DNA of 64,000 nucleotides. Source: Nocardioides humi (lineage in GTDB: Bacteria > Actinomycetota > Actinomycetes > Propionibacteriales > Nocardioidaceae). Each line of letters starts with the position of its first letter. Positions within the stretch are counted from its first letter, which is position 1. The position numbers and the translations under genes were made by a program. A model generated the notes under the pieces. That model was not told where the DNA came from, did no database searches, and saw only the letters and a list, made by a program, of their open reading frames with translations. This document shows positions 55,402 to 64,000 of the stretch, piece by piece. The DNA lies in the NCBI RefSeq assembly GCF_006494775.1, contig NZ_CP041146.1, positions 4,464,001 to 4,528,000 on the forward strand, written 5' to 3'.

Positions 55402-55612
55402 TCCGGGGTCCCTGCGAAGTTGTTCGGAGGAGCGAAGCGGGGGAGAAGAACTTCGTGGGGTGGTTTCATGTCATCCAGCCTGCGGGGTCGACGGCCTGCG
55501 GACCATCGGGGACAGCCCTGATCCTGCCGCATCCCCCGGGGTGGGCATCAGGGTCGGCTCAGGGTGCTTCCCGCTGCTGGCGCGGGGCCCGCTGTGTGAC
55601 GATGGAGGCATC

Positions 55613-56923
55613 ATGAGCACCGCTGCGACCACCCCTGCGCCGCCGGCCGCCGCACCCGGCGCACCGGCCGGCCAGGACGTCCGCGACGTCCGGCGCGCCT
55701 GGCGCGATCTGCGCGACCCGATGATCGGCGGGGTCGCCGCCGGGCTCGCCGCGCACCTCGGCGTCTCGGTCCGCATGGTGCGGGTGGCGTTCGTCATCAC
55801 CACGGTCATCGGCGGCTTCGGCGTGCTGACGTACGCCGCCCTGTGGGCGCTGCTGCCCGCCGGGCCCCCGCCCGAGCTGGTCGCCCCGGGCCTGGCGAGT
55901 GCCGCGCGGGACGGGCGCCGCCCCGGCCGCGGGCGCCGCCTCTCCGACATCGGGCCGGTCGTCACCCTCGCCGTCCTCGGCGTGGGCGCGGTGTTCGCGA
56001 CCGAGGCGCTGCTCGGCACCGGCTGGTGGATCTGGCCGCTCGGCATCGCCGTCGTCGGCGTCGCCCTGCTGTGGCGCCAGGCCGACGAGGCGCAGCGCGA
56101 GCGCTGGCTCGACGCGACCGATCGGATCGACCCGGTGCGGATGTTCCTCGGTGGCGGCGGCTGGGCCGCCTGGGCCCGGATCGCCGCCGGCGTCGGCCTC
56201 GTCGTCGTCGCGCTCGTCCTCTTCACCCTCCGCGACGGCTCGCTGTCGGTGGCCCGCGACGCGGTGATCGCCGTGCTGCTGGCGATCGGCGGCCTGGTGA
56301 TCGTGCTCGGACCGCTGGTCTACCGGCTGCTCGCCGAGCTCAGCGACGAGCGGGCCGAGCGGGTCCGCACGCAGGAGCGCGCCGACGTCGCCGCCCACCT
56401 GCACGACTCCGTCCTGCAGACCCTCGCGCTGATCCAGAAGAACCCCGCCGACGCCGCCCGCCTGGCCCGCGCCCAGGAGCGGGACCTGCGCGCCTGGCTC
56501 TACGCCGGCGAGTCGATGGACGAGGCCACCGTCGCCAGCGCCCTGCGGGCCGCCGCGGCCGAGATCGAGGACGCGTACGGCGTGACCGTCGACGTGGTCG
56601 CCGTCGGCGACCGCGACTACGACGAGTCCGCCCGCCCGATCGTCCAGGCCGCCCGCGAGGCCACGACCAACGCGGCCAAGCACGCCGGCGTGCCGCGCGT
56701 CGACGTGTATGCCGAGATCACCGAGGCCGGCATCGACGTGTTCGTCCGCGACCGTGGCGCCGGCTTCGACCCGGACGCCACCCCGGAGGACCGGCTCGGC
56801 GTCCGACGCAGCATCATCGACCGCATGGAGCGGCACGGCGGCCGGGCCGAGATCCGGTCCGCGCCCGGCGAGGGCACCGAGATCCGGCTGCGGCTCGAGG
56901 TTCAGAATGGGTCAGGGGAGTGA
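55613..56923 (+). CDS. PspC-domain sensor histidine kinase (NarL-type)
   Basis: A 436-residue membrane kinase. An N-terminal PspC domain (RDPMIGGVAAGLAAHLGVSVRMVRVAFVITTVIGGFG, about residues 33-70) is followed by about four more TM helices. The dimerisation/phosphorylation helix contains VAAHLHDSVLQTLALIQ (His264), and the ATP-binding domain has AREATTNAAKHAG and RDRGAGFDPDATPEDRLGVRRSI. ATG 55613 follows TGGAGG. The response regulator gene follows 7 bases after its stop. The kinase likely responds to membrane stress sensed together with the divergent PspC protein. Confidence 0.92.
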   Translation: MSTAATTPAPPAAAPGAPAGQDVRDVRRAWRDLRDPMIGGVAAGLAAHLGVSVRMVRVAFVITTVIGGFGVLTYAALWALLPAGPPPELVAPGLASAARDGRRPGRGRRLSDIGPVVTLAVLGVGAVFATEALLGTGWWIWPLGIAVVGVALLWRQADEAQRERWLDATDRIDPVRMFLGGGGWAAWARIAAGVGLVVVALVLFTLRDGSLSVARDAVIAVLLAIGGLVIVLGPLVYRLLAELSDERAERVRTQERADVAAHLHDSVLQTLALIQKNPADAARLARAQERDLRAWLYAGESMDEATVASALRAAAAEIEDAYGVTVDVVAVGDRDYDESARPIVQAAREATTNAAKHAGVPRVDVYAEITEAGIDVFVRDRGAGFDPDATPEDRLGVRRSIIDRMERHGGRAEIRSAPGEGTEIRLRLEVQNGSGE

Positions 56924-56929
56924 GAGACG

Positions 56930-57601
56930 TTGTCGAAGAACCTTGAGGGGCCGGTGCGCGTGGTGGTCGTCGACGACCACGCCATGTTCCGTCGCGGCGT
57001 CAGCGCCGAGCTGGGTGCCACGGGCGCCGGCCGGGTCGAGGTCGTGGCCGAGGCCGCCGATGTCGACGAGGCCGTCGCGGCCGTCCAGCAGCACCGGCCG
57101 GACGTCGTACTGCTGGACGTGCACCTGCCCGGCGGAGGCGGCGTCGAGGTGATCCGGCGGGTCAAGGACGGCGACGTGCGCTTCCTCGCGCTGTCGGTGT
57201 CCGACGCGGCGGAGGACGTCATCGGCACCGTCCGCGGCGGCGCCCGCGGGTACGTCACCAAGACGATCACCGGGCCCGAGCTGGTCGACGCGATCGCCCG
57301 GGTCGCCGACGGGGACGCCGTCTTCTCGCCGCGGCTGGCCGGCTTCGTGCTCGATGCCTTCGCCGGCGCCGGGCTCTCCGCCGACCTCGCGAGCGTGGAC
57401 GAGGACCTCGACCGGCTCACCGAGCGGGAGCGGGAGGTGATGCGGCTGATCGCGCGCGGGTACTCCTACAAGGAGGTCGCCAAGGAGCTGTTCATCTCGA
57501 TCAAGACGGTCGAGACCCACATGTCGTCGGTGCTGCGCAAGCTGCAGCTGTCCTCGCGGCACGAGCTGACCCGGTGGGCCTCGGACCGGCGGCTGCTGTG
57601 A
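56930..57601 (+). CDS. LuxR-family two-component response regulator
   Basis: A 223-residue regulator with a receiver domain (VVVVDDHAMFRRGV, phosphoacceptor Asp63 in VVLLDVHLPGGGG, Lys of KTITG) and a C-terminal LuxR-type DNA-binding domain (LTEREREVMRLIARGYSYKEVAKELFISIKTVETHMSSVLRKL, about residues 160-205). The start is a TTG at 56930, with GGGGAG about 9 bases upstream. It is the partner of the PspC-type kinase just upstream. Its stop overlaps the next gene (GTGA), linking a cell-wall peptidase to the envelope response. Confidence 0.93.
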   Translation: MSKNLEGPVRVVVVDDHAMFRRGVSAELGATGAGRVEVVAEAADVDEAVAAVQQHRPDVVLLDVHLPGGGGVEVIRRVKDGDVRFLALSVSDAAEDVIGTVRGGARGYVTKTITGPELVDAIARVADGDAVFSPRLAGFVLDAFAGAGLSADLASVDEDLDRLTEREREVMRLIARGYSYKEVAKELFISIKTVETHMSSVLRKLQLSSRHELTRWASDRRLL

Positions 57602-58455
57602 TCCGCGGCGCGGGGCTGCTCCTCGTCGCCGCGCTGCTCGCCGGATGCTCCGGTGGTACGACGAGCGAGCCGCCGGCCGCGTCGCCCACGCCGTCGCCGA
57701 TCTCGCCGGCTCCGTCGCCGACCGCCCCGCCGAGCGACCCCGGCCCGGCGTACTCCGACTGGGAGCTCGGCGTCCACGTCCTGCCGCGCACGCCGGACGG
57801 GTACGGCGAGATCCGGCCGACGCCGAAGCCGCTGCGGGTGCGCCGGTTCCCGACGAAGGACCTGCTGCCACCGCCCGCGGACGGGGAGTTCCATGCGAGC
57901 GTCGGGCCGGTCACCGACGCGATCCGCCAGCGGATGGGGGAGACCTGGTCGCCCGCCTGCCCGGTGGCGCTGGCGGACCTGGCGTACGTGAACGTCTCCT
58001 TCCGGGGCTTCGACGGCAAGGCGCACACCGGCGAGCTGGTGCTCGCCGCCAAGGTGGCCGACGACGTGGTGTCGGTGTTCCGCGCGCTCTTCGCGGCCGG
58101 GTACCCGATCGAGGAGATGCGGCTGCCGACCACCGCCGACCTCGACGCACCGCCCACCGGCGACGGCAACGACACCGCCGCGCTGGTCTGCCGCGCGGCC
58201 CGCGGCCAGACCTCGTGGTCGGCCCACGCGTACGGTCTCGCGATCGACGTCAACCCGTTCCTCAACCCGTACCACAAGGGCGACGTGGTGCTGCCGGAGC
58301 GGGCGTCGGCGTACCTCGACCGGAGTCGCACCCAGCCCGGCATCATCCACGCCGGCGACCTGGTCGTGCGCGAGTTCGCCCGGATCGGCTGGACCTGGGG
58401 CGGCTCGTGGAGCTCGCTGAAGGACTACCAGCACTTCTCCGCGACCGGTCGCTGA
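57598..58455 (+). CDS. M15-family peptidoglycan peptidase lipoprotein (VanY/endolysin-like)
   Basis: A 285-residue exported lipoprotein. The start GTG 57598 overlaps the response-regulator stop and gives IRGAGLLLVAALLAGCSGG, with lipobox LAGC. A Pro/Ser-rich linker follows to about residue 55. The M15 metallopeptidase domain keeps the zinc ligands His210 and Asp217 in SAHAYGLAIDVNP and His279 in DYQHF. This is the M15C pattern of L-Ala-D-Glu or D,D-peptidases that cut peptidoglycan. The coupling to the two-component system suggests wall remodelling on envelope stress. A GTG frame further upstream (57574) is only shadow. Confidence 0.9.
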   Translation: MIRGAGLLLVAALLAGCSGGTTSEPPAASPTPSPISPAPSPTAPPSDPGPAYSDWELGVHVLPRTPDGYGEIRPTPKPLRVRRFPTKDLLPPPADGEFHASVGPVTDAIRQRMGETWSPACPVALADLAYVNVSFRGFDGKAHTGELVLAAKVADDVVSVFRALFAAGYPIEEMRLPTTADLDAPPTGDGNDTAALVCRAARGQTSWSAHAYGLAIDVNPFLNPYHKGDVVLPERASAYLDRSRTQPGIIHAGDLVVREFARIGWTWGGSWSSLKDYQHFSATGR

Positions 58456-58486
58456 TCCGGGGTCCGCCACCGCATACAGTTCGGGC

Positions 58487-58843
58487 ATGGAGACCGTGCG
58501 CCTGATCCTGCTCATCCTCCACATCCTGGGCTTCTCGGCCCTGATCGGCGGGCTGCTGGCGCAGGCCGGATCGGCCGACAAGAAGGTGACCGGCGTGATG
58601 CGCGACGGCGTCGGCACGGCGTTCCTCGCCGGCCTGCTCCTCGTCGGCGTCCTCGAGGGCGGCGACGACCCGGTCAACCACGCCAAGGTGGGCGTCAAGC
58701 TCGCCATCGGCCTGGTCCTCCTGGTGCTCGTGATGGCCAACCTGCGCAAGGCCAAGATCCCCGACGGCCTCTGGGCCGGCCTGCTCGTCCTCTCCGTCGC
58801 CGAGGTCTGCATCGCCGTGCTCTGGTCGCCCGTCCACAGCTGA
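58487..58843 (+). CDS. Small four-TM membrane protein
   Basis: A 118-residue protein of four predicted TM helices (METVRLILLILHILGFSALIG, GVGTAFLAGLLLVGVLEGG, VGVKLAIGLVLLVLVMANL and LWAGLLVLSVAEVCIAVLW). Loops contain few charged residues except KKVTGV and NLRKAKIPDG. It is a conserved actinobacterial membrane protein of unknown function. ATG 58487 is 31 bases after the M15 gene. The region after its stop (58844-59119) is gene-free and holds the left repeat cluster. Confidence 0.82.
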   Translation: METVRLILLILHILGFSALIGGLLAQAGSADKKVTGVMRDGVGTAFLAGLLLVGVLEGGDDPVNHAKVGVKLAIGLVLLVLVMANLRKAKIPDGLWAGLLVLSVAEVCIAVLWSPVHS

Positions 58844-58878
58844 TCCGGCCGGGCTCCCTGTCGCGGAGCCGTGCACCG

Positions 58879-59030
58879 CTGTAACACGCAGTTCGCCCCT
58901 CTGGCAGCCAGGTCTCTGCTGTAACACGTAGTCCTCAGACCTAGCAGCCGCATGCCTGTGGTTGCAGCCCGCCACAGGGCCCGAAAAACGAAGTGTTCGG
59001 GCGGGTAGAGCAGCGAACAACGTGTTACAG
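58879..59030. repeat. Left palindromic repeat cluster beside the AbiEi-DUF559 gene
   Basis: Two plus-orientation copies (TGTAACACGCAGTTCGC at 58880-58896 and the shorter CTGTAACACGTAG at 58919-58931) face one inverted copy, GCGAACAACGTGTTACAG (59013-59030). The outer pair matches at 15 of 17 positions, so the whole ~150-base block is a palindromic unit like a MITE or large REP element. Its right 23 bases (59008-59030) are identical to 60417-60439 in the other cluster. Confidence 0.82.
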
Positions 59031-59119
59031 CACGACATCAGGGCGGCGCGTCCCGGTTCGTGCGACGGCGCACGAGACCAGAACGAGCCCGATGGAGAGC
59101 CTGGCGGAAGGTCCGACGG

Positions 59120-60184
59120 TCAGGCTGCCCAGCGCTCCCAGCCCATGATCCGGTAGGTGGGCGGGCGCAGCTGCGGCCGTGGTCGGGGACCACGGGGTCG
59201 GTACGCCGCGAGGTCGGCGATGTCCGTGCCGTAGCGCTCGCAGGTGGCGAGGTACTCGCGCAGCATCCGGCTCCTGCCCAGGTTCGCGCCCGGGCCCCAG
59301 ACGTCGCCCCACGTCACCCGGCACACGCCGAGCTTGAATCCCGCGATGAAGTCCTGACGCCCCTTCTCGGCCCAGAGGACGTCCGTGGCCGGCCGGTCGG
59401 CGTACCCGCCGTCGACGGGGGCGAGGATCTTCACCTTGCCGTCGAACTCGTAGATCTGTCGGCCGAGGCGGACATCGCACCAGACCGTACGTCCGTCGGC
59501 GGTGAGGCCGAACTGGACCTCGGGCGTCCCGAACCCCAGGCTCTCCACCGAGTCGCGCAGGAGCGTCTCGCCGATCGAGTCCGTATGCGGGGTGGCTGAG
59601 GCGATCACGTCGCGGATCACGGTGGAGTGCGGCCAGCAGTACATCTGCCGCGCCACCTCCAGCAGGTCCCTGCGAGTGACGCCCAGCCTCATCGCGGAAT
59701 CGACCGCGACCAGACCCGCCAGGTAGCCATGCTCGCGGACGATGTCGAGCGCGGTCCGCGCCAGTCCGAGCATCGACATGCCGCCGACGATGCAGACCTG
59801 CTCCGGCGGGTACGGCGCGAGATGCTGTGCGATTCCGTCGCGCCGGTGCGTGCCGACGATACCGGGTCGGGTCAGATGAGAGGTCGGATCCGGTTCCCGC
59901 AGGACGGGTAGCCGGAGCGCGTAGGCCGCCGAGTGGTGACTCATCACGTGGGGATGACGCATACGCAGACTCGCCGCGCGATCCGCCAGCATCCGCTGCT
60001 CGGCGTGGCTGGTGAGCGTGTCGACGTACCGCGTCTCGGCGTAGACACCGCGCCGTACGGCGGTCCAGCGCCCGGAGTTGACGAGACGGTCGATCTGTTG
60101 GGCGGACATGCCGGCCGCAATGGCCTGTGGTCGGGTGATCAGGCCCCATTGCGTACTCATCACGGCGATGACTCGACTGTTCAT
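59120..60184 (-). CDS. AbiEi-type antitoxin-domain protein with DUF559-like nuclease domain
   Basis: A 354-residue protein. Residues about 5-50 are a winged-helix AbiEi N-terminal domain (MSTQWGLITRPQAIAAGMSA, then WTAVRRGVYA), as in antitoxins of the type IV AbiE system. The C-terminal part looks like a Vsr/DUF559 PD-(D/E)XK fold: DSIGETLLRDSVESLGFG with Glu205, CDVRLGRQIYEFDGKVK with Asp237 and the E246-x-D-G-K250 motif. No toxin partner (AbiEii) is encoded next to it. It starts at ATG 60184, and both flanks are palindromic repeat clusters with no genes. Function is unknown; a mobile-element or defence role is speculation. Confidence 0.82.
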   Translation of the reverse strand: MNSRVIAVMSTQWGLITRPQAIAAGMSAQQIDRLVNSGRWTAVRRGVYAETRYVDTLTSHAEQRMLADRAASLRMRHPHVMSHHSAAYALRLPVLREPDPTSHLTRPGIVGTHRRDGIAQHLAPYPPEQVCIVGGMSMLGLARTALDIVREHGYLAGLVAVDSAMRLGVTRRDLLEVARQMYCWPHSTVIRDVIASATPHTDSIGETLLRDSVESLGFGTPEVQFGLTADGRTVWCDVRLGRQIYEFDGKVKILAPVDGGYADRPATDVLWAEKGRQDFIAGFKLGVCRVTWGDVWGPGANLGRSRMLREYLATCERYGTDIADLAAYRPRGPRPRPQLRPPTYRIMGWERWAA

Positions 60185-60328
60185 GAGCAGACCTTGCGCG
60201 ATGAGGCGGACGCCGGACGCGGCTCCGGTCGATGGCTGTGGACAACACGCCGAGCTGCGGGCCCTGTGGATGAGTCGCGGGCCGCGATGGAACGGATGCG
60301 ACGGGTGGGATCGGTCGGGTCGGTCGCA

Positions 60329-60479
60329 TGTAACACGTGGTTCGCAACTCTTCCAGCCCCGTCCCGGTGGTAGCAGCCGCGTACAGACCGGGTTTGGCGA
60401 AGTCATGCGGCTGCTTGAGCAGCGAACAACGTGTTACAGGTGCTGCGCGGCGCTCAGGCAGGCGAACCACGTGTTACAG
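60329..60479. repeat. Right palindromic repeat element with perfect terminal inverted repeats
   Basis: TGTAACACGTGGTTCGC at 60329-60345 is the exact complement of GCGAACCACGTGTTACA at 60462-60478, giving a ~150-bp unit with perfect 17-bp terminal repeats. An internal third copy, GCGAACAACGTGTTACAG, is at 60422-60439. The overall plan matches the left cluster. The remainder of the gap 60185-60547 shows no coding potential. pcrA begins 69 bases downstream. Confidence 0.85.
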
Positions 60480-60547
60480 CGCGTGCCGAGCCCCCCGCGC
60501 GACCAGCAGTCACGGGCGTCGGCGCGGCGCCGTAGGCTGGCGGGAGC

Positions 60548-63007
60548 ATGATCGACTCCGCGACGCCTCCGGCCCTCACCGCCCCTTCGCCCCTCACGGC
60601 ACAGTCCCTCCTCGAGGGGCTCAACGACCCCCAACGCGAGGCCGTACGACACGAGGGCGCGCCGCTGCTCGTCGTGGCCGGTGCCGGCTCGGGCAAGACC
60701 CGGGTGCTGACGCGCCGGATCGCGTGGACGATCGCCGTCCGCAAGGCCCATCCGGGCTCGATCCTCGCGATCACCTTCACCAACAAGGCCGCCGCGGAGA
60801 TGAAGGAGCGGGTGGCCGAGCTGGTCGGCAACCGCGCCCGGATCATGTGGGTGAGCACCTTCCACTCGGCGTGCGTGCGGATCCTGCGCAAGGAGGTCGA
60901 GCACCTCGGCTACGAGCGGCTGCGGTCGAACTTCTCGATCTACGACACCCAGGACCAGAAGCGCCTGATCCAGCTGGTCTGCAGCGACCTCGAGCTCGAC
61001 CCGCGGCGCTACCAGCCGGGGCCGGTGCTGCACTGGATCAGCAACCAGAAGAACGAGCTGCGCGAGCCCGACGAGGTCGCGGCGGAGGCCCGCAACACGA
61101 GCGACGAGACGTACGCCGCGGCGTACTCCGCCTATCAGCGGCGGTTGCGCGAGGCGAACGCGATGGACTTCGACGACCTGATCATGGAGACGGTCCGGCT
61201 GTTCCAGCTCAAGCCGGACGTGCGCGAGACCTACCGGCGGCGGTTCCGGCACATCCTGGTCGACGAGTACCAGGACACCAACCACGCCCAGTACGCCCTC
61301 ATCCACCAGCTCTGCGGGCAGGACCTCGAGGAGCACGACCCGACCACGCTCGACGGGCTGCCGGCCGACCGGGTGCCGCCGGCGGAGCTGATGGTCGTCG
61401 GCGACGCCGACCAGTCGATCTACGCCTTCCGCGGCGCCGACATCCGCAACATCCTCGACTTCGAGAAGGACTTCCCGGACGCGCGGACCATCCTGCTCGA
61501 GCAGAACTACCGCTCCACCCAGACCGTGCTGAGCGCCGCCAACGCCGTCATCGAGCGCAACGAGAGCCGTAAGCCGAAGCGGCTGTGGTCCGACGCCGGA
61601 GACGGCGAGAAGATCGTCGGGTACGTCGCCGACGACGAGCACGACGAGGCGCGGTTCGTCTCGGGGGAGATCGACAAGCTGGTCGACGCGGGCATGCGCG
61701 CGGCGGACGTGGCGGTGTTCTACCGGACCAACGCGCAGTCCCGCGTGTTCGAGGAGATCTTCGTCCGCACCGGCATGCCCTACAAGGTCGTCGGCGGCAC
61801 ACGGTTCTACGACCGCAGGGAGATCCGGGACGCGCTGGCGTACCTGCGGGTGCTGGTGAACCCCGACGACCAGGTGTCGCTGCGCCGGATCGTCAACACC
61901 CCCCGCCGCGGCATCGGGCAGCGCGCGGAGGCGGCGATCGGCGCCTTCGCCGAGCGGGAGCGGATCACGTACTGGGAGGCGCTGCAGCGCGCCGGCGAGG
62001 CCCCCGGCCTGGCCACCCGCAGCCAGACCGCGATCGAGGGCTTCGTCGCGCTGGTCCAGGAGCTGCAGCAGATGGTCGAGGCGCGCGAGCGGCCCGACGT
62101 GATCCTCGAGACCGTGCTCGACCGGTCGGGCTACCTCGTCAGCCTGGAGAACTCCGACGACCTGCAGGACGAGACCCGGCTGGAGTACCTCGCCGAGCTC
62201 GTCGCCGTGGCCCGGGAGTTCGCCGAGGACCCCGTCGCCGGCCCCTCGGCCGATCCCGCCGACGTCGACGCCGGCATCCTCGAGCCCGGCCTGGCCGACT
62301 TCCTCGAGCGGGTCGCGCTGGTGGCCGACGCCGACCAGATCCCCGACGCGCCCGAGGACGACCCGGATGCCCCCGAGGACCAGGGCGTCGTCACCCTGAT
62401 GACCCTGCACACCGCCAAGGGCCTGGAGTTCCCGGTCGTCTTCCTCACCGGCATGGAGGACGGCGTCTTCCCCCACTCCCGCGCCCTCGGCGACCGGCCC
62501 GAGCTGGAGGAGGAGCGGCGCCTGGCGTACGTCGGCATCACCCGCGCCCGCCAGCGCCTGTACGTCTCCCGCGCCATGGTCCGCTCCGCCTGGGGTGCCC
62601 CCTCGATGAACCCGGGCTCCCGCTTCCTCGGCGAGCTCCCCATCGACCTCGTCGACTGGCGCCGCACCGAGGCCGACCAGACCCGCTGGTCGCGACCGTC
62701 GTACGGCGGACCGGGCGGCCCCGGCGGCTCCGACGACTACGCCGGCAACCGCTTCGGCCAGCCCACCGCCGCCGGCCGCCGCAACTTCAGCTCCGCCGCC
62801 GCCCGTGCCGACGCCGCCGCCAAGTCCAAGACCTCGCGCCCCATCCCGGTCCTCGCCCCCGGCGACAAGGTCACCCACGACACCTTCGGGCTGGGCACCG
62901 TGGTGTCGGTCGAGGGTGCGGGGGACAAGTCCGTCGCGTCGATCGACTTCGGCTCCGACGGCGTCAAGCGGCTGCTGCTGCGGTACGCGCCGGTGGAGAA
63001 GCTCTGA
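60548..63007 (+). CDS. pcrA: ATP-dependent DNA helicase PcrA/UvrD
   Basis: A 819-residue superfamily 1A helicase for DNA repair and plasmid/replication restart. Walker A is VVAGAGSGKTRVLTRR (Lys50). Other motifs are AITFTNKAAAEMKERV (Ia), LVDEYQDTNHAQY (II), VVGDADQSIYAFRGAD (III), LEQNYRSTQTVLSAAN (IV), MTLHTAKGLEFPVVFLTGMEDG (V, in part) and YVGITRARQRLYVSRA (VI). The C-terminal tail ends in a Tudor-like PcrA segment (PGDKVTHDTFGLGTVVSVEG). It is a stand-alone gene starting at ATG 60548 after GCGGGAGC. Confidence 0.97.
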   Translation: MIDSATPPALTAPSPLTAQSLLEGLNDPQREAVRHEGAPLLVVAGAGSGKTRVLTRRIAWTIAVRKAHPGSILAITFTNKAAAEMKERVAELVGNRARIMWVSTFHSACVRILRKEVEHLGYERLRSNFSIYDTQDQKRLIQLVCSDLELDPRRYQPGPVLHWISNQKNELREPDEVAAEARNTSDETYAAAYSAYQRRLREANAMDFDDLIMETVRLFQLKPDVRETYRRRFRHILVDEYQDTNHAQYALIHQLCGQDLEEHDPTTLDGLPADRVPPAELMVVGDADQSIYAFRGADIRNILDFEKDFPDARTILLEQNYRSTQTVLSAANAVIERNESRKPKRLWSDAGDGEKIVGYVADDEHDEARFVSGEIDKLVDAGMRAADVAVFYRTNAQSRVFEEIFVRTGMPYKVVGGTRFYDRREIRDALAYLRVLVNPDDQVSLRRIVNTPRRGIGQRAEAAIGAFAERERITYWEALQRAGEAPGLATRSQTAIEGFVALVQELQQMVEARERPDVILETVLDRSGYLVSLENSDDLQDETRLEYLAELVAVAREFAEDPVAGPSADPADVDAGILEPGLADFLERVALVADADQIPDAPEDDPDAPEDQGVVTLMTLHTAKGLEFPVVFLTGMEDGVFPHSRALGDRPELEEERRLAYVGITRARQRLYVSRAMVRSAWGAPSMNPGSRFLGELPIDLVDWRRTEADQTRWSRPSYGGPGGPGGSDDYAGNRFGQPTAAGRRNFSSAAARADAAAKSKTSRPIPVLAPGDKVTHDTFGLGTVVSVEGAGDKSVASIDFGSDGVKRLLLRYAPVEKL

Positions 63008-63025
63008 CCGGAGCGAAGCGACATC

Positions 63026-63180
63026 GGTCATCGAGTAGCGATCGCGGGTGAGGGACGAACCCGCGAAGAGCGTATCGAGACACGGTGAGCCGATGCCGTG
63101 CCTGTGCTGCGCAACCGGCATGCGTCTCGATACGCCCGCCGCGGCTTCGTTCCTCAGTCGCGCCGTGCTACTCGACGACC
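63026..63180. repeat. 155-bp palindromic repeat element after pcrA
   Basis: Nested inverted repeats run from both ends to the middle: GGTCATCGAGTAGC (63026-63039) with GCTACTCGACGACC (63167-63180; 13 of 14), TGAGGGACGAAC-like with TTCGTTCCTCA-like segments, and CGTATCGAGAC (63071-63081) with GTCTCGATACG (63124-63134; perfect). A 30-base part matches the repeat before guaA (30251-30280). It is the only feature in the 223-base gap and could double as a bidirectional terminator between convergent pcrA and the M23 gene. Confidence 0.82.
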
Positions 63181-63230
63181 AATGTCACGCCGGATCGCGG
63201 TTCGCCCTCGCAAGCTCGGGCGATTCCGTG

Positions 63231-64000
63231 CTACGGCGTGACGCCGTGCTGCCGCAGCGCCGCGTCCGGGTCGACCGGGTCGCCGCCGCCGGGGCGGACC
63301 TCGAGGTGCAGGTGGGGGCCGGTGACGTGGCCGGTGCTGCCGACGTACCCGATGGTCTCGCCGGCGCGGACGGTGTCGCCGGGGGAGACGTTGAACGAGC
63401 TCTGGTGGCAGAACCAGAGCTCGGTGCCGTCGTCGAGGGTGATGACGGTCTTGTTGCCGTAGGCGCCGTCGAAGCCGGCGGAGGTGACCTTGCCGTTGGC
63501 GACGGCGCGGATGGGGGTGCCCGGAGGGGCGGCGAAGTCGAGGCCGGTGTGGTAGCTGGACCAGAGGCCGTACTGGCCGAACTTCGCGGTCAGCCGGTAG
63601 CTGGCGAGGGGGAGCACCCACTTGTTGAGGGCGATCTCGGCGGCTTCCCGCTCGGCGTCGCGGGCCAGGTTGCCGAGGGCGCTGGTGCGCTCGGCGGCGG
63701 AGCGCTCGGCCTCGGCGACGAGGTCGCTGCCGGCGGCCTGGGCGAGGGCGTCGCGGTCGGAGTCGCGGCTCACGGTCTCGGCGCGGGTGCCGACGACGGC
63801 GCTGCCGAACGAGCCGGTCAGCGCGTTGGGGGAGCTGAGGCGGTCGCCGGCGGCGGCCAGCTGCGGGTCGGCCGAGGTGACGACGCCGCCGACCGCGACC
63901 GCGATGGTGGCGACGCCGACGGCGACGGGCAGTGTGGGCAGGCCGCGGAACAGCGGCCCGCGGGCGCCGGCGTGCTTGACGGCACGGCGCTTGCCGGCCG
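63231..64000 (-). CDS. M23-family metallopeptidase, N-terminus outside window
   Basis: Peptidoglycan endopeptidase of the LytM/M23 family. The visible part (about 256 codons) has a basic N-terminal stretch (GKRRAVKHAGARGPLFRGLP), one TM helix (TLPVAVGVATIAVAVGGVV), a coiled-coil-like region (AEAERSAAERTSALGNLARDAEREA) and the M23 domain. Zinc-site motifs are HTGLDFAAPPGTPI (HxxxxD) and HLHLEV (HxH). A GTG at 63773 could start a shorter product, but the frame stays open with a TM helix upstream, so the true start is beyond 64000. Confidence 0.9.
   Translation of the reverse strand, partial: AGKRRAVKHAGARGPLFRGLPTLPVAVGVATIAVAVGGVVTSADPQLAAAGDRLSSPNALTGSFGSAVVGTRAETVSRDSDRDALAQAAGSDLVAEAERSAAERTSALGNLARDAEREAAEIALNKWVLPLASYRLTAKFGQYGLWSSYHTGLDFAAPPGTPIRAVANGKVTSAGFDGAYGNKTVITLDDGTELWFCHQSSFNVSPGDTVRAGETIGYVGSTGHVTGPHLHLEVRPGGGDPVDPDAALRQHGVTP

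Follow-up and report, generated by a model that had tools for sequence, protein, structure and literature searches.

Introduction

Why should a gene for a two-domain protein, half AbiEi antitoxin-like and half putative nuclease, stand between two copies of a palindromic repeat? The question is raised by a window of 64,000 nucleotides from Nocardioides humi (contig NZ_CP041146.1, positions 4,464,001 to 4,528,000), in which a single AbiEi-nuclease gene is enclosed by two bracket elements. A sequence-only reading of the window had proposed either a non-autonomous mobile unit carrying a nuclease or regulator, or an operator array that the protein itself reads. We compared the locus with the remainder of this strain's genome (G000, a single contig of 6.22 Mb) and with related genomes. 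From this comparison, we infer that gene and brackets probably form a mobile cassette whose AbiEi-nuclease likely spreads short elements in trans. The earlier interpretation is thus partly supported.

A bracketed gene at a site that is empty in relatives

The two palindromic units proposed around the gene are defined by a 17-mer, TGTAACACGYNGTTCGC, found at +58880, +58920, and −59013 in the left unit and at +60329, −60422, and −60462 in the right. The window holds six matches at up to three mismatches, all within these units, against an expectation of 0.46, and none of 100 shuffles reached six. In each bracket core, the inward-facing 17-mers are spaced 93 nt start to start, and the outer unit follows a 40-nt period. 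The right bracket is an inverted copy of the left (60401-60481 versus 58877-58957, 72% complementary). The perfect 17-bp terminal inverted repeats described for the right unit are present, and the 23-bp end common to both units, GAGCAGCGAACAACGTGTTACAG, can be read directly from the sequence.

If the unit is mobile, an empty site had been predicted between the small membrane gene and pcrA, and such a site exists in the relative G014. There, the two genes are 52 nt apart, nothing lies between them, and they encode proteins 93% and 92% identical to those of the window. Among 29 relatives' loci, pcrA falls within the flank in 15, in every case 46-412 nt from the small membrane gene and without an AbiEi match; the remaining 14 say nothing about this adjacency. 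Direct adjacency is therefore most likely the ancestral state, and the cassette most likely an insertion between the two genes. On G014, the alignments of window flanks 55459-58872 and 60517-63003 share 17 nt (L259 4154-4170), which is suggestive only of a possible degenerate target duplication (Table 1). N. albidus carries the gene in the same place (81% identical), and the insertion most likely took place in the ancestor that it shares with this strain.

Table 1. Features of the AbiEi-nuclease locus, in window coordinates
Feature	Position	Strand	Remarks
Left bracket element	58880..59029		150 bp; core 58920-59029 (two inward 17-mers) plus one outer unit at 58880
Right bracket element	60329..60478		150 bp; core 60329-60438 plus one outer unit ending at 60478
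AbiEi-nuclease gene	59120..60184	-	354 aa; AbiEi-like residues 1-198, predicted PD-(D/E)XK nuclease 199-316
Possible degenerate target duplication, left copy (CCCTGTCGCGGAGCCGT)	58856..58872		13/17 as in G014; suggestive only
Possible degenerate target duplication, right copy (CGTCGGCGCGGCGCCGT)	60517..60533		16/17 as in G014; suggestive only
Small membrane-protein gene, left neighbor of insertion site	58487..58843	+	From open reading frame (ORF) reading; no Pfam match
pcrA/UvrD-type helicase gene, right neighbor of insertion site	60548..63007	+	Presumed name, from the sequence-only reading

Among the neighboring genes, the profile scan was run on the small membrane gene alone; the right-hand gene is presumed to be a pcrA/UvrD-type helicase gene. 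By ORF reading of 56000-64000, neither a transposase gene near the AbiEi-nuclease gene nor a toxin gene (AbiEii-like/DUF1814 nucleotidyltransferase) beside it was recognized. A structured RNA at the locus was considered and rejected, as Rfam gave zero matches at E≤1 in 58700-60700.

Protein architecture

The AbiEi-type half of the protein was borne out by Pfam AbiEi_4 (E=4e-10), which was also found in all 22 aligned homologues, and residues 1-198 match the solved AbiEi fold (PDB 6Y8Q) as well. Close homologues are named "type IV toxin-antitoxin system AbiEi family antitoxin domain-containing protein" in some sources. The DUF559 label earlier given to the other half was not confirmed: none of the 22 homologues matches the profile (PF04480) at E≤1, and assignment of this half relies on structure prediction and invariant residues. 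The predicted structure has a predicted local distance difference test (pLDDT) score of 87.7, and the fold of its nuclease half matches 3R3P, 3HRL, and 1CW0, so that the C-terminal half is predicted to resemble the Vsr and I-Bth0305I nucleases. E206, D237, E246, G249, and K252 are invariant in the alignment (22/22 for E206, D237, E246, and K252). Of the residues named beforehand, D237, E246, and G249 stand; the glutamate placed at position 205 is E206, and the lysine is K252, K250 not being conserved. A predicted restriction-endonuclease-like fold with conserved acidic residues and a lysine fits the PD-(D/E)XK superfamily, and we regard the protein as a putative nuclease.

No transposase family, including Y1/HUH (Transposase_17, PF01797), appeared in Pfam scans of the protein and the 22 aligned homologues. 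The gene has no phage-borne matches and two weak plasmid matches from Tsukamurella, 28-29% identical. Genes annotated as AbiEi-family antitoxins are common in actinomycetes: 111 of the 148 class genomes sampled have an AbiEi_4 match, a count of all AbiEi_4 proteins and not of two-domain ones alone.

A dispersed family of elements

The bracket terminus is not confined to the locus. At up to two mismatches, the 17-mer has 69 sites in G000 versus one for a reversed control, and 68 of these group into 26 elements, brackets included, leaving one stray. In every element, plus sites come first and minus sites follow, each as a run. The inner pair is spaced 93 nt in 24 elements and 73 nt in the other two, and further copies are added outwards at exactly 40-nt steps; element sizes are 90-230 bp. 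In some elements, the outer 40-nt unit nearly duplicates the adjoining unit (38 and 36/40 in L040; 36/40 in L033); in others, it has diverged (24-33/40 positions alike). L040 (4080-4125) also has a tandem repeat immediately beyond the element, made of a 23-nt stretch, CTACGTGTTACAGCGCACCCGCC, that covers the element's right end and some of the flank next to it. Heuristic gene calls place almost all elements between genes.

The N. albidus genome has about ten elements, and four positions plus both brackets are common to it and G000. We probed 20 G000 elements there, and nine were cleanly absent, with 0-61 nt between aligned flanks versus 128-368 nt in G000. Five matched on one flank only and three gave no usable match; at the L031 and L039 sites, other DNA with no recognizable 17-mer lies between the flanks. 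The L044 site (L130 1757-1856) holds an element of another TGTAAC family with TGTAACTCGGTGTTCG ends, where G000 has a TGTAACACG element. Of the remaining N. albidus elements, L110 lies in a rearranged place that gives no clean comparison, and the unshared L113-L116 are left out. In G014, L050, L051, and L052, the only other G000 elements covered by its stretches, are missing at the aligned sites. Because relatives lack the gene or lack several copies at matching spots, we consider the protein likely to spread the element.

These data also bear on the operator array, in which the protein would regulate its own gene or genes genome-wide and the dispersed elements would be its binding sites, retained to control genes or to organize the chromosome. 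Precedent exists, since AbiEi and Rv2827c autoregulate by binding 23-bp inverted repeats in their own promoters (PMC7319586); the same precedent makes it plausible that the AbiEi half here reads inverted 17-mers. The arms agree with such a role: in the G000, G036, G019, and G030 elements, each arm is conserved without co-variation (pairing versus shuffles, z=−5.5, −1.9, 0.1, and −2.7; samples of 24 of 26 elements, two 90-bp ones being dropped, then 20, 12, and 8), which is the pattern expected if a protein reads the arms as double-stranded half-sites and differs from that of repetitive extragenic palindromic (REP) hairpins. Selection for a hairpin in TGTAAC elements was rejected, arm pairing being at or below shuffles in all four. 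Elements on both sides of the gene are harder to accommodate, as are the nine sites cleanly empty in N. albidus and a conserved nuclease half that regulation does not need. Moreover, 24 of the 31 element sides within 150 nt of a gene face gene 3' ends (binomial p=0.003), a 24:7 count made by hand on heuristic gene calls, with 31 of 48 sides within that distance and L046 adjoining a doubtful ORF. With elements that mostly face 3' ends and come and go between relatives, we judge the operator array improbable, though it survives better than the other alternatives.

Protein-element pairs across homologues

If repeat and gene travel together, homologues elsewhere should have brackets of their own. 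We scored 23 homologue loci (this one, N. albidus, the 19 best-scoring loci of relatives, and two distant G000 paralogues) for a repeat common to both sides of the gene. In 22 of 23, such a repeat, in direct or inverted order, scored above 19; the sole exception, L070, is at a contig edge. By the same test, none of 30 loci of the neighboring small membrane gene shows a cross-gene repeat. As threshold, we took the 99th percentile for 1260 random intervals drawn from the window and from stretches of G000 selected around elements; some of these intervals span an element. The sequence-only reading would have been abandoned had the repeats been scattered with no tie to this gene family and homologues elsewhere lacked them; the repeats are scattered, but 22 of the 23 examined homologue loci have brackets. 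Leaving aside this locus and N. albidus, none of the remaining 21 homologue loci has pcrA, the small membrane gene, or the gene at 57574 in its examined flanks.

A class-wide sample of 30 AbiEi_4 loci points the same way, with 9 of 11 scorable loci above threshold where the motif E-x-[D/E/C]-G-x-x-K is present and 0 of 7 where it is not. Twelve loci were unscorable (seven with flanks too short, five with the core not found). The motif contrast is weak because genes were called by a rough rule, and at least one of the seven motif-less genes (28 aa) is clearly not the real gene.

Bracket termini also recur, dispersed, in genomes whose gene carries the same termini. Across 58 genomes at up to one mismatch, TGTAACACGTNGTTCGC has 57 sites in G000, 29 in G001, 37 in G011, and 39 in G015, and elsewhere only two in G033 and one in G009. 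TGTAACACGCYGTCCACC has 14 sites in G033 and 17 in G034, with two more in G000 and one in G014, and exact TGTAACGCSGGGTTA has 12 in G010, 24 in G019, 18 in G030, 8 in G032, and 31 in G036. Similar proteins tend to have similar termini (Spearman 0.35, a value reached by none of 5000 permutations) in a Mantel test of 18 of the 23 homologues, five being dropped for a stop or for lack of an alignable TGTAAC terminus. This correlation is compatible with co-evolution or with plain common descent. In G036, elements cluster near the gene (p=1.7e-5; 13 of 18 no farther away than a quarter of the maximum distance, G036:C1 3.66-4.23 Mb). Among G036 elements L160-L163 and L165-L168, several combine a standard end with a degenerate or different one (e.g., ACTTCC...CTGTGGACGCTTC), which shows that composite elements occur.

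The strongest internal sign of a separate element for each protein comes from the two G000 paralogues, which have separate dispersed families. Over the match, they are 28% identical to the protein in the window, and they are 57% identical to each other; each is bracketed by palindromes that differ from the window's family. One (L075, G000:C1:4603081-4604312) lies between GTTGCAAC-centered palindromes, a family found at 29 places; the other (L076, G000:C1:5849754-5850978) goes with a double-palindrome element (GCATGGATCCCCGGATGTCCGGGGATCCATGC plus GCTTGTCAGG..CCTGACAAGC) found at 38. Both counts come from one bracket as a G000 query at E≤0.01 and include the locus's own brackets and some partial matches. 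The L076 family places are mostly 86-97% identical, several then having a tail with repeated GTGAC-like motifs, and this element may have been active recently. Across the two brackets and 18 of 20 copies sampled, four pairs are changed on both sides, and total pairing is not above shuffles (1341 and 279 of 2000 reach it). The three G000 families share no common place within 500 bp.

Such pairing is difficult to reconcile with MITE-like elements (miniature inverted-repeat transposable elements) moved by another transposase, the AbiEi-nuclease gene having been captured or serving as an accessory. The TGT...ACA ends do recall Mu-, Tn7-, and IS21-type elements. However, one genome holds three paralogues, each with a different element family, and the gene-repeat association persists in the class-wide sample. 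The 1.6-kb cassette shows no transposase gene, the rest of G000 not having been searched for one. A passenger role for the gene is slightly less credible to us than the operator array.

Discussion

How might a cassette with no visible transposase gene spread? In the mechanism that we favor, the AbiEi half would recognize the TGTAACACG ends through their 17-mers, and the Vsr/homing-type nuclease half would cut DNA at element ends. Acting on elements in trans, the protein would scatter gene-less copies round the genome, with copies perhaps arising through repair of the break. Outward gains of 40-nt units would fit cutting and resynthesis at the ends.

Several observations weigh against a mobile cassette that spreads its elements in this way. 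To our knowledge, a nuclease alone has no joining activity; we know of no joining enzyme in the cassette, and the protein has no transposase domain by Pfam. The insertion itself is deduced from comparing genomes, and element absence in N. albidus could partly be loss. The insertion ends are not sharp, since, from site to site, the DNA gained is 2-197 nt longer than the element, and there is no consistent target duplication (direct repeats in the flanks average 7.06 versus 6.86 in permuted pairs, 24 elements). Clustering near the gene is not significant in G000 (p=0.23), G001 (p=0.18), or the paralogue families (p=0.32 and 0.22). Nor do gene and repeat always coincide. G014 has zero 17-mers genome-wide (up to one mismatch) yet contains other homologues, the best 38% identical. 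G018 has ten TGTAACGCSGGGTTA-pattern sites with no homologue at E≤1e-3, and G017 has seven with a homologue only 31% identical; both speak against a strict protein-element link, and G007, G008, G012, and G022 have one or two such sites each. G018 is rated 100% complete, and its ten TGTAACGCGGGGTTA sites, of which six form three pairs at 55 nt, amount to orphan elements.

An anti-phage or addiction nuclease, for which the elements would mark or protect self DNA, is the least likely explanation: PADLOC AbiEi models match the N-terminal half (best E=6e-16) and the predicted fold resembles Vsr and homing nucleases, but ORF reading reveals no AbiEii-like toxin gene alongside, the relative G014 has neither cassette nor elements, and element counts vary widely among genomes.

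The closest parallel to the mobile cassette is provided by REP-RAYT units (REP-associated tyrosine transposase; REPtrons, or TnpA-REP with REP/REPIN). There, as described in PMC2817692 and PMC3733652, a gene lies between two palindromic elements that are also dispersed intergenically near gene 3' ends, with repeat-specific partners in one genome. The layout here is alike, with a gene flanked by inverted, dispersed palindromic elements. REP-RAYT units, however, have a Y1/HUH transposase in place of AbiEi plus a predicted PD-(D/E)XK nuclease, a GTAG/GTRG (or CGTC) head that the TGTAAC-ended elements lack, and a palindrome kept by complementary changes, whereas the arms in the four families tested here do not co-vary; the G000 elements also differ in their size and 40-nt end units. 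The cassette would work like a REPtron but is not one.

Other systems share less. The AbiE type IV toxin-antitoxin system (AbiEi, 6Y8Q) and Rv2827c (1ZEL) have the AbiEi winged-helix half in common with the protein, which differs in its extra nuclease half, its genome-wide dispersed element family, and the absence of a visible adjacent AbiEii-like toxin gene. MITEs are likewise short, gene-less, and dispersed, with terminal inverted repeats and TGT...ACA ends; here, no parent transposase is identified, no target duplication is clear, and the partner gene is the AbiEi-nuclease. The Tn7 nuclease TnsA works with TnsB, and no TnsB-like gene is seen in the cassette. We know of no pairing of EDxHD/Vsr-type nucleases (I-Bth0305I, Vsr) or TnsA with dispersed palindromic elements. 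Among the matches listed in a search of open-licence PMC titles and abstract openings, none pairs AbiEi or DUF559 proteins with dispersed palindromes.

Conclusions

Whether the finding extends beyond this locus is a question on which we see the case as evenly balanced: AbiEi-nucleases may drive an undescribed, actinomycete-wide class of mobile DNA, in which a transposase-free winged-helix PD-(D/E)XK protein propagates a cognate palindromic element. If so, one genome would host several co-evolving protein-element pairs, REP-RAYT-like but with entirely different chemistry, and the three pairs in this genome offer a built-in specificity test. Two-domain AbiEi proteins would be partners of mobile elements and not lone antitoxins, and many intergenic repeats of actinomycete genomes would be explained. 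It would become possible to test whether a nuclease can mobilize DNA with no known transposase involved, and if the protein does spread its element, the cassette would represent a new kind of mobile DNA.
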